The notes below the pieces were generated by a model, which saw only the letters and a list, made by a program, of their open reading frames with translations, was not told the DNA's origin and did no database searches. A stretch of 64,000 nt of DNA, from the NCBI GenBank assembly GCA_009691725.1, contig SIAP01000004.1, positions 1-64,000 of the forward strand, written 5' to 3'. The position numbers and the translations under genes are program-made. Origin of the DNA: Phycisphaerales bacterium (GTDB lineage Bacteria > Planctomycetota > Phycisphaerae > Phycisphaerales > SM1A02). Positions within the stretch are counted from its first letter, which is position 1. The number at the start of each line of letters is the position of its first letter. Shown here in pieces: positions 2,778-63,888 of the stretch.

Positions 2778-3572
2778 TTATCGGGGGTCGTAGGCAGCGT
2801 CGTCGTCGCTGAGGAACCCATTCTTGGGCCAGCCGAGTGGAGATTCCAAGAGCGCCTCCACGCCGGGTTCGTTTGCATGCACGCCCTTGCATGATTGGCA
2901 CTCACCCCGCACATGCCCATCGAGCCATGCGACATTCGTACAACCCGTGTGACGAAACGCTTGCGCTCCGGCGTAGACAACGCCGAGGTCCATCTCGACG
3001 GTCGCACTCGGTGCACGCATGAACTTGTTCGCACCACCACTCCATCCGCCATCGCCAAACAGCGCCGTTTCCGCTGGTTGACGAATCTGCGCGGCGGAGA
3101 GTCCATGGCGCGCACTCTTCCATCCACATTGCCACTGTCCATCGGCGCCAATCGTCGGCCACGAGCCCTCCGCACCGATGTAGGTCGTGTTGTAATTGAA
3201 TCCTGTGTAGGGATCGTTCCCAAATGTGCTCCTCGCCAGAAAAGATGGGCACTGCTGCACTTGAAAGGGGTGATCGGTGAATGACCAGAGCGGACCTGGT
3301 TGAACGCCTCCACCTGCATCTTGGACAAAGTCCCACGCAACTGTTCGCACGCCCGCCGCAGTCAACTCGAAGAGAATTGCTGGCGGGAAGACGCCGCGAT
3401 TGACATTGGAGTAGGACTCTGCGGCAAGGGAGAGTTGCCGAAGACGTGATGCGCACTCTGCGCTTCGACTCGTGTCGCGCACCCCTGTGATCGTGGGGAG
3501 TGCGATTGAAAACAAGATCGTGACGATGCCTAGAGCAACCAGGACTTCCACAAGCGTGAATGCTCGGCGCAT
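2778..3572 (-). CDS. Prepilin-type N-methylation protein (type II secretion pseudopilin-like, DUF1559-like)
   Basis: A 264-residue protein beginning MRRAFTLVEVLVALG, a class III (prepilin) leader with Phe at +1 and Glu at +5 after a short basic n-region, followed by one hydrophobic helix. It should be processed by prepilin peptidase and inserted in the inner membrane or assembled into a pseudopilus. The body is a globular, Trp- and Cys-containing domain. A late NVAWLDGHV segment matches the H-x9-DG-like tail motif common in planctomycete pseudopilins, followed by a CQSCKG pair. The start at 3572 overlaps the stop of the upstream gene as TGATG, so the two are translationally coupled and both lie behind the cobalamin riboswitch. 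Role unknown; a part in surface assembly or B12 capture is inference from context. Confidence 0.85.
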   Translation of the reverse strand: MRRAFTLVEVLVALGIVTILFSIALPTITGVRDTSRSAECASRLRQLSLAAESYSNVNRGVFPPAILFELTAAGVRTVAWDFVQDAGGGVQPGPLWSFTDHPFQVQQCPSFLARSTFGNDPYTGFNYNTTYIGAEGSWPTIGADGQWQCGWKSARHGLSAAQIRQPAETALFGDGGWSGGANKFMRAPSATVEMDLGVVYAGAQAFRHTGCTNVAWLDGHVRGECQSCKGVHANEPGVEALLESPLGWPKNGFLSDDDAAYDPR

Positions 3573-4504
3573 CAGTTGCTCCATCCAGCGAGGACAGCCG
3601 TGAGGTCGGGACCATCCACAGTTCCGCTGCGATCGATGTCCGCCGACGAAGATGCGCTGCCAAACGCAGAGAGCACAGCAGCAAGATCGGCGCCATCGAC
3701 CGCACCATTTCCGTCGATGTCAGCGGGGTGAGTGAGTGGATTCACTCGCGAGACCGCATCAATCTCAACATTCGCAACAACGCCATTTCCAACCACGATG
3801 CGAATGGCGACCGCCTGCGCGATTCCGACAGAGGCAAGGTCGACGCCCGCTCCACCTGCTGCGCCGTCATAGAGTGCGACGAGCTCTTCGTACGACACGC
3901 CAGCAATCGCACTCATGCCAAGCGCGGGATCAACGGGCATGTGCGGATTCGTTGCGGTCAGACCAGCCGTGTTGGAATAGGGTTCGCAATCGACGTACCC
4001 CATGGTCGGGAACAGTCCATCGGCGAGAACCATCGGAATCGTCAACCACGTCGCGCCATCCTGCGTGACCTGAACCGTTCCACCATCGCTCGCGAGTCCG
4101 CTGACGACACCAGAGGGATACGCGCCATCTGTAAAGAACGAATTCCCAAAGATCAAGAAGTCGATGCCAAAGGGATTGCCCGCGTGATCGCGCAGTGGTG
4201 GGTTGAATCCGAGCGTCAACGCGCCACCCGCACCAATCGACACAACTTCGCTCGAGAGAAAGCAAGGCTGGAATGGAGTCGTTGCGCCAGGGTCGATCCC
4301 CTCGCCAGTCATGCGCTCGGGCGGTCCCAGAGCGACGAGCGGATTGGTGAATCCATTCGCAGGGTTGGTCCCCATCGAGTACGAGATCACACGCGATGCG
4401 AAGTCGCCTGCGCACACTGCGTCAGCGAGTGGTCCCAAGAGGGCAATCTGACCGAGCATCGAAGTGAACAACCAGAGCGTGGACAGTCGTGTGTGGGTTC
4501 GCAT
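3572..4504 (-). CDS. Secreted protein with C-terminal dockerin-like repeats, cobalamin-riboswitch controlled
   Basis: A 310-residue exported protein. Residues 1-32 form a signal peptide (basic n-region, long hydrophobic core, Ala-rich end). The body of about 210 residues is beta-rich, with conserved-looking stretches NPLVALGPPER, EVVSIGAGGALTLGF and NPFGIDFLIFGNSFF. From memory these resemble surface proteins encoded in bacterial B12-uptake loci; I cannot confirm the family by search. The last 55 residues hold two calcium-loop repeats, DIDGNGAVDGADL and DIDRSGTVDGPDL, each followed by AAVLSAFG or TAVLAGW, typical of dockerin-like tails in Phycisphaerae. No good Shine-Dalgarno precedes the ATG at 4504. 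It is the first gene after the B12 riboswitch and is coupled to the prepilin-like gene. Confidence 0.85.
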   Translation of the reverse strand: MRTHTRLSTLWLFTSMLGQIALLGPLADAVCAGDFASRVISYSMGTNPANGFTNPLVALGPPERMTGEGIDPGATTPFQPCFLSSEVVSIGAGGALTLGFNPPLRDHAGNPFGIDFLIFGNSFFTDGAYPSGVVSGLASDGGTVQVTQDGATWLTIPMVLADGLFPTMGYVDCEPYSNTAGLTATNPHMPVDPALGMSAIAGVSYEELVALYDGAAGGAGVDLASVGIAQAVAIRIVVGNGVVANVEIDAVSRVNPLTHPADIDGNGAVDGADLAAVLSAFGSASSSADIDRSGTVDGPDLTAVLAGWSN

Positions 4505-4544
4505 GTGAGTTGAGGGAACTTGATGTATGGAGCGTGGCGATCAC

Positions 4545-4578
4545 GCACCGAGCGCCCCAATCGCGTGGGTGGCGGTGC
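4545..4578 (-). promoter_or_regulatory. Hairpin in the riboswitch expression platform
   Basis: GCACCG and CGGTGC flank a GC-rich interior, forming a strong stem-loop just after the aptamer and about 40 bases before the start codon. There is no U run after it, so it is either a non-canonical terminator or an anti-anti-sequestering stem. Whether control acts on transcription or translation cannot be decided from sequence. Confidence 0.4.
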
Positions 4579-4585
4579 AAAGCGA

Positions 4586-4765
4586 AGGCAGGTTTTCCGA
4601 CTTCGGGCACCCGAATCTGTCTTCCCAGATCTTGCAGATGCAACATCCAGTGACATCTCTGATTCGGGCTATGGAGAATTGCTCCTCCACCCGTTACGGC
4701 GGCGCGTCCGTGGCGGAATTTCACCGCTTTCCCTCGCGAAGTCGTTGGAGCCAACCAACCACAGC
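4586..4765 (-). promoter_or_regulatory. Cobalamin (AdoCbl) riboswitch
   Basis: Read on the minus strand, the region contains the diagnostic B12-aptamer blocks in order: AGGGAA, then CGGTGAAATTCCGCCACGG (around 4710-4735), CCGCCGTAACGG, GTCACTGG (4647-4654, the B12-box equivalent of GCCACTGG), GGGAAGAC (4619-4626), and AGTCGGAAAACCTGCC at the 3' end (4587-4602). Spacing and order match the class I cobalamin fold. It lies 82 bases upstream of the secreted dockerin protein, with nothing else in between. The outer P1 limits are approximate. High cobalamin is expected to repress the two downstream genes. Confidence 0.93.
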
Positions 4766-4941
4766 GCGCCTCGGCGCACGAGTGCCGAGGGTCAATCACA
4801 GTGCCACGATACCAATTCCATATTGGCACATCGTTGCAAAGTCCACGAGACTGCGATACTTTTCCCCGTCCCGCCTCACTCGCCTCGCGTCGCATGGTTC
4901 GCACTCGCATGGTCCGATCTGACCACAGGAGCTGAATTCAA
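4766..4941. other. Intergenic region between the riboswitch leader and the divergent repeat-protein gene
   Basis: This should hold the minus-strand promoter of the riboswitch transcript and the plus-strand promoter of the gene at 4942. A perfect inverted repeat (CCTCGGC ... GCCGAGG, 4770-4791) lies just upstream of the aptamer on the minus strand. On the plus strand TTGCAA (4834-4839) and GATACT (4855-4860) form a weak promoter-like pair with only 15 bases between them. No convincing gene. Confidence 0.4.
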
Positions 4942-7285: not shown

Positions 7286-7357
7286 GCCACCCTAGCTCAG
7301 TGGTAGAGCAATGCTTTCGTAAAGCATAGGTCGTGGGTTCGAGTCCCATGGGTGGCT
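7286..7357 (+). tRNA. tRNA-Thr(CGU)
   Basis: 72-base cloverleaf: acceptor stem GCCACCC paired with GGGTGGC, D-loop AGCTCAGTGGTAGAGC, anticodon stem ATGCT/AGCAT around loop TTCGTAA (anticodon CGT, Thr ACG codons), and T-arm GTGGG-TTCGAGT-CCCAT. Discriminator T, as usual for bacterial tRNA-Thr. CCA is not encoded. A -10-like TACACT lies at 7255-7260. Confidence 0.95.
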
Positions 7358-50512: not shown

Positions 50513-50600
50513 GGAGAGGTGTCCGAGCGGTTGAAGGAGCCAGTCTCGAAAACTGGTGTGGGCCTCGTGCTCACCGTGAGTTCGAATCTCACCCTCTCCG
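50513..50600 (+). tRNA. tRNA-Ser(CGA)
   Basis: 88-base type II tRNA: acceptor GGAGAGG/CCTCTCC, anticodon stem CCAGT/ACTGG around loop CTCGAAA (anticodon CGA, UCG codons), long variable arm, and T-arm GTGAG-TTCGAAT-CTCAC. Discriminator G as in bacterial tRNA-Ser; CCA is not encoded. A -10-like TATACT lies at 50496-50501. A TTTTT run follows directly. Confidence 0.95.
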
Positions 50601-63797: not shown

Positions 63798-63888
63798 CGG
63801 ACAGGGCGGGATTCGAACCCACGGTAGGGGTATAAGCCCCTACATCGGTTTAGCAAACCGACGCCTTCAACCGCTCGGCCACCTGTCC
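63798..63888 (-). tRNA. tRNA-Ser(GCU)
   Basis: 91-base type II tRNA on the minus strand: acceptor GGACAGG/CCTGTCC, D-arm GTGGCCGAGCGGTTGAAGGC, anticodon stem TCGGT/ACCGA around loop TTGCTAA (anticodon GCT, AGC/AGU codons), variable arm about 20 bases, and T-arm GTGGG-TTCGAAT-CCCGC. Discriminator G; no encoded CCA. A TACACT -10-like box lies 11 bases upstream on the minus strand (63900-63905). Confidence 0.95.

Follow-up and report, generated by a model that had tools for sequence, protein, structure and literature searches.

A Cobalamin Riboswitch, a BtuH-Like Exported Protein and a Pilin-Like Protein in a Phycisphaerales Bacterium: A Probable Corrinoid Acquisition Operon

The 64,000-nucleotide stretch of DNA analyzed here (the window; contig SIAP01000004.1 of Phycisphaerales assembly GCA_009691725.1) carries a cobalamin riboswitch followed by two coupled genes, ORF1 and ORF2, and comparative genomics gives good support to a role of the unit in B12 acquisition. 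The locus is probably a B12-repressed corrinoid acquisition operon, in which a surface-located binder of the BtuH type and a dedicated pilin take the place of BtuB. To our knowledge, the Gram-negative outer-membrane importers of B12 that have been characterized are TonB-dependent BtuB proteins, and B12 exceeds the size limit of ordinary porins. The evidence comes from the conservation of the unit, the relationship of ORF1 to BtuH, the distribution of the pilin family to which ORF2 belongs, and the genes found with that pilin under other B12 riboswitches.

The Riboswitch and Its Two Genes

A cobalamin aptamer had originally been predicted from the sequence upstream of the two genes, and a covariance search recovered it as a match to the full Rfam model (positions 1-189), with a score more than sufficient against the gathering score of 31.5 (Table 1). 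No second cobalamin riboswitch was found in the organism's own genome (G000; 2.07 Mb, 92.6% complete). The remaining Rfam matches in the window are three tRNA genes, at 7286-7357, 50513-50600, and 63798-63888. The 161 nt running from the end of the aptamer to just past the start of ORF1 were folded as the expression platform; the z-score was 0.23, and neither a clear terminator nor a hairpin masking the start codon was seen in this stretch. The expected coupling of the genes by TGATG is present, with the ORF2 ATG (3572-3570) and the ORF1 stop codon having one base in common.

Table 1. Features of the riboswitch-controlled unit, in window coordinates
Feature	Position	Strand	Remarks
Cobalamin riboswitch aptamer RF00174, B12 box (GUCACUGG)	4570..4778	-	cmscan 65.1 bits, E 8.2e-14
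ORF1, exported protein; BtuH-like body, dockerin-like tail	3572..4504	-	310 aa; hydrophobic leader
BtuH-like body domain (putative), ORF1 residues 34-255	3740..4405	-	conserved in 28 aligned relatives
FGN motif, ORF1 residues 119-121	4142..4150	-	N121 aligns with BtuH2 Asn399
C-terminal dockerin-like/EF-hand pair, ORF1 residues 261-309	3578..3724	-	sub-threshold Dockerin_1, EF-hand, NF041540
ORF2, prepilin-like, class III leader, DUF1559/H-X9-DG type	2778..3572	-	264 aa

The arrangement proved to be nearly invariant when 151 genomes from its GTDB family were surveyed by intersecting ORF1 matches with RF00174 matches. Long ORF1 matches occur in 134 of these genomes, usually one per genome (136 copies), and in 123 of the 136 cases a same-strand riboswitch immediately precedes the gene, at a median gap of 159 bases, so that homologs do sit beside B12 riboswitches in related genomes, as anticipated. 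Some of the 13 copies lacking a riboswitch may be explained by contig ends or stricter filters. Seen from the other side, ORF1 adjoins 123 of the 150 riboswitches listed in the family, and most of the others that were inspected precede a family of small secreted proteins (c6). In 87 loci the gene after ORF1 is an ortholog of ORF2 (34-74% identity inside the planctomycete family), and in 70 of these loci the stop and start codons overlap or abut. The same order of riboswitch, ORF1, and pilin was also found on two Verrucomicrobiales contigs, where the ORF1 tails, as far as they are visible, are PEP-CTERM-like in place of dockerin-like.

ORF1 and Its Relationship to BtuH

The first gene had been predicted to encode an exported product with calcium repeats, and this agrees with its hydrophobic leader and with a C-terminal EF-hand/dockerin-like pair that does not reach the cut-offs of these families (EF-hand, 17.1; Dockerin_1, 17.1; GC-type dockerin, 23.0 versus 29). 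Judged from its sequence, the tail is a probable surface anchor; the tails of other relatives are PEP-CTERM-like or of the T9SS type instead. When ORF1 alone was compared with Pfam, NCBIfam, and the PDB by sequence, only dockerin/EF-hand matches were returned, and the body matched nothing in Pfam or NCBIfam. Neither the Pfam model PF14717 nor hhalign linked it to DUF4465 (BtuJ). At the level of direct family searches, then, the original prediction that the unit holds no recognizable corrinoid gene stands, but a profile of ORF1 relatives is distantly similar to BtuH.

This similarity was found with a profile of eight ORF1 relatives, which matched PDB chain 8blw_B (B. theta BtuG1) with an E-value of 3.6e-5, the matched region being exactly the BtuH domain. 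The match depends on the presence of a Bacteroidales relative, L039, in the profile, and a sequence search of the PDB with a planctomycete/verrucomicrobial profile lacking it returned no BtuH. L039 is itself a clear BtuH homolog (8blw_B, E 7e-39; BtuH2 7biz, E 3e-37), encoded in a locus consisting of a riboswitch, the BtuH-like gene, a TonB receptor, and DUF5074. A planctomycete protein under a riboswitch, L140, has PKD domains as BtuH2 does and matches both BtuH2 (7biz, E 3e-11) and, in an hhalign comparison, the ORF1 profile (98.7%, E 4e-16, 172 columns), with shuffled sequences and unrelated operon proteins giving hhalign probabilities below 1%. Fold comparison with foldseek against 350,542 PDB chains ranked 8blw_B first for both AlphaFold models of ORF1, with CBM32/F5-8 folds close behind and scoring nearly as well; these models are of low confidence (built from 8 and 7 sequences, one without L039 in its alignment; pLDDT 53 and 59) and serve as support only.

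One candidate contact residue could also be followed. The asparagine of the FGN motif, N121, was invariant in the first alignment and shows at least 90% conservation across 28 relatives. When positions were counted off along the printed alignment with 7biz, N121 fell on BtuH2 Asn399, the residue that touches the phosphate of B12 in the 7BIZ structure (PMC8941943). Among the BtuH2 contacts Gln333, Asn399, His476, Tyr510, Trp511, and Trp577, only Asn399 maps to a conserved ORF1 position, Gln333 not being conserved and the other four being impossible to align.

These comparisons suggest that the ORF1 body is distantly homologous to BtuH by way of Bacteroidales and planctomycete intermediates, and that it is best regarded as a divergent BtuH-type domain, predicted to bind B12, instead of a wholly new binder. 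This refines the picture of the surface protein that had first been envisaged, and the overall reading as corrinoid acquisition gained support; as expected, no enzymatic family was found in the body. Like BtuH2 (BT_1956; 7BIZ; PMC8941943) and like the domain of that name in BtuG1/BtuGH (8BLW; PMC10404256), ORF1 is an exported protein with a putative domain of the binding type under a B12 riboswitch, and the likeness may extend to distant sequence homology, the fold (best match), and the conserved asparagine at the phosphate contact. Unlike these proteins, it lacks PKD domains and a lipoprotein signal, possesses a dockerin-like tail, shows very low overall similarity, and is partnered by a pilin in place of BtuB/BtuG.

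A Distinct Family of Pilins

The class III prepilin leader originally read at the start of ORF2 was confirmed by two models scoring above their cut-offs (PF07963, 24.9 bits; TIGR02532, 24.0 bits), and Glu5 and the hydrophobic helix are both present. The DUF1559 model (PF07596) scored below its cut-off (21.7 versus 23.3 bits), although relatives from two other loci (L196 and L155) pass it, and the H-X9-DG signal is weak. ORF2 is of the same type as the DUF1559/H-X9-DG prepilins of Planctomycetota, from which it differs by its membership in a family linked to B12 riboswitches, many of whose members have the C-terminal motif G-[FW]-x-x-x-D/N-x-x-[YF]-D in common.

A profile built from 20 riboswitch-linked pilins was run on 197 genomes of the phylum, 20 of which proved to contain a single full-length member each, scoring 189-325 bits. 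A few intermediates reached up to 158 bits, and most other pilins scored about 100 bits, often over the N-terminus only. Sixteen of the 20 full-length members were seen downstream of a riboswitch, and riboswitch-linked members from five genomes (G342, G277, G172, G159, and G224) were outside the set used to build the profile. In another genome, G252, the contig ends just upstream of ORF1, and in three genomes of one genus (G195, G214, and G316) the pilin is present but the 15 kb read contained no above-threshold riboswitch. The loci L261, L262, and L263, from three complete genomes of one genus that have no TonB-dependent receptor, hold the B12-type pilin and a small lipoprotein-like gene, again with no riboswitch reaching the threshold. 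Overall, the family occurs under B12 riboswitches across Planctomycetota and, in a divergent form, in Verrucomicrobiota; in the f2 family the pilin is more divergent and lies two genes after ORF1. ORF2 is a type IV pilin-like protein of a distinct family.

Partner Genes at Other B12 Riboswitches

The link between riboswitch and pilin spans at least eight families, in which the partner genes and their order differ. The fullest set was found within the same class, at L141, where the riboswitch is followed by DUF4465, BtuH-like, pilin, BtuF (PF01497), BtuD (ABC_tran), and BtuC (FecCD) genes, an order seen once. Other loci have, after the riboswitch, BtuH-like, DUF4465, and pilin genes (L153); c6-like, BtuH-like, and pilin genes (L145); c6-like and pilin genes (L188 and L194); or BtuF, BtuC, BtuD, and pilin genes (L196). 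In the f28 family (L155, L156, and L159), the pilin comes first, followed by a small protein, a diphthamide-synthase-like ATPase (PF01902), a DUF6580 membrane protein, and a BtuF-like protein. In these B12 loci the binder varies and the pilin is constant.

The scavenging locus had been described as distinct from BtuB/BtuFCD, and half of this description survives: since the same pilin shares one operon with BtuF, BtuD, and BtuC in related genomes, the system appears to be an alternative to BtuB and not to BtuFCD. The BtuH and DUF4465 binders and BtuFCD are already known. DUF4465/BtuJ proteins are surface binders of B12 in riboswitch loci, one of them from the planctomycete Mucisphaera, and their published contexts include TonB receptors and ABC transporters, not pilins (PMC12751083, PMC13398666). 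ORF1 is not a DUF4465 protein, but DUF4465 genes share operons with the pilin family at L141 and L153. A B12-riboswitch-controlled pilin was not found described as a conserved component of a B12 locus in the open-access (PMC) literature searched.

Several further genes were observed in such loci. The c6 family (L090-L108; L144, L145, L188, and L194) consists of small exported proteins of ~190 aa with a PEP-CTERM-like end and no Pfam match, encoded directly under B12 riboswitches, either alone or ahead of BtuH-like and pilin genes, and it is a candidate for a further surface binder of B12. In two loci (L036, 6888-8492; L146, 9351-10781), a gene for a PQQ-type beta-propeller separates the ORF1-like gene from the pilin, and because BtuG is also a beta-propeller, it may be a further B12-locus protein. 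In other planctomycetes, a riboswitch, an ORF1-like gene, and a probable beta-propeller gene were seen at L143 (G238), and a riboswitch with a PKD-BtuH-like gene at L140 (G160); no pilin was found at either locus.

Pilins as Possible Substitutes for TonB-Dependent Receptors

The surroundings of 92 riboswitches from across the phylum (a maximum of three from each family, together with earlier picks) were compared by means of a prepilin motif scan, a simple pattern that missed at least one pilin known by homology (L144). The motif was found downstream on the same strand at 14 riboswitches, upstream on the same strand at one, and on the opposite strand at two; one of the 14 downstream loci (f19) may be unrelated. 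A TonB-dependent receptor lies downstream of 26 of the 92, and pilin and receptor were found together at none. The P values for this exclusion (hypergeometric, 0.006) and for the downstream versus upstream position of the pilin (Fisher, 0.0006) ignore shared ancestry and are a guide only.

At the level of whole genomes, the receptor's Plug domain (PF07715) was not found in G000, in any of the four f2 or the three f15 genomes, in G219, G252, or G282, or in any of the eight f28 genomes tested, several of them complete or in a single contig. Of 20 genomes tested within the window's own family, 11 encode a single Plug protein, in most cases ~1000 aa long. It is unlikely that this protein is a hidden BtuB, since the example that was examined contains a carboxypeptidase-regulatory domain and lies amid TPR genes, with no sign of a link to B12, and since the receptor is absent from G000 and others; in one genome it is beside a probable ExbB gene. 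Four genomes with the pilin (G203, G221, G296, and G342) have several TonB receptors, and G203 also contains another riboswitch locus, in which a receptor is present. The unit resembles the BtuB-TonB/BtuFCD system in its regulatory logic and in the BtuFCD inner-membrane partners of its sister operons, but its operon lacks a TonB-dependent receptor, none was found in G000 and many relatives, and the pilin occupies the receptor's place.

A need for B12 and a possible machinery for the pilin were both found. G000 encodes a B12-dependent MetH (PF02965), three secretin matches, and T2SSF proteins, and secretin and T2SSF were present in 25 of 25 genomes tested. No strong FecCD/BtuC was found in G000, possibly because of the genome's incompleteness, and a congener possesses a BtuFCD-like cluster without a riboswitch.

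Proposed Mechanism and Alternatives

The following sequence of events is envisaged. When B12 is scarce, the riboswitch would permit expression of the transcript, and ORF1, exported and surface-anchored, would capture corrinoid outside the cell through its BtuH-type domain. ORF2 would be assembled as a pilin or pseudopilin by type II secretion or type IV pilus machinery and, acting at the outer membrane in place of BtuB, would either carry the corrinoid across or present it there. The corrinoid would then be passed to the periplasmic BtuF-BtuCD transporter to complete its import, and MetH would be one of its users. A bolder version, which we put forward only tentatively, holds that a pilin-like filament is itself the outer-membrane importer of B12, working through a secretin to BtuF and replacing TonB-BtuB in planctomycetes that lack the receptor. 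Equally tentative is the part of this version in which the riboswitch-controlled pilin captures the corrinoid, either by itself or together with a surface binder of the BtuH-like, DUF4465, or small c6 type.

Pseudopilins drive type II secretion, and as the main alternative it is conceivable, though rather unlikely, that ORF2 is a secretion pseudopilin that exports or anchors ORF1, with the corrinoid entering otherwise, for example through a porin. The export of ORF1, its translational coupling to ORF2, and the presence of several secretins are all as this explanation would have them, but the pilin is retained in the L196 and f28 loci, where no ORF1-like secreted protein was recognized. An improbable explanation is that the riboswitch controls a function other than uptake, such as adhesion or attachment to B12 producers or particles during B12 shortage, with ORF1 as a CBM32-like polysaccharide binder and ORF2 forming an adhesive pilus. 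Many adhesive surface proteins do have pilins or dockerin-like tails, and the CBM32/F5-8 runners-up of the fold search would fit, but the operons with BtuF, BtuD, BtuC, and DUF4465 and the chain of homology to BtuH point to corrinoid uptake. Finally, with 68 DUF1559 paralogs in P. limnophila alone (PMC10632474) and members of one family sharing their ancestry, and so not being independent, the pilin might stand beside the riboswitch by chance or by vertical inheritance of one old gene order, but this is highly improbable given the motif's downstream bias at the 92 riboswitches, the differing partner genes and gene orders among the families, and the separation by score of one specific pilin family from most other pilins.

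Significance for Planctomycetes

Under the preferred reading, that of a B12-repressed acquisition operon, BtuH-type binders would be extended beyond the gut Bacteroidetes and the few Firmicutes reported so far. Many of the planctomycetes studied need B12 for MetH yet show no TonB-dependent receptor, and if the constant, B12-regulated element of their uptake loci is indeed a pilin, this would represent a different way across the outer membrane. Pili-like fibers on the crateriform structures of planctomycetes bind dextran, and it has been proposed that these bacteria take up large molecules by a fiber-linked route, with an uptake system "still to be characterized" (PMC5394234); if the pilin is connected with these fibers, corrinoid would give such uptake a defined substrate. 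It would also give a function to one family within the very large set of DUF1559-type pilins, and pilin-driven import of B12, if it occurs, would be categorically new.
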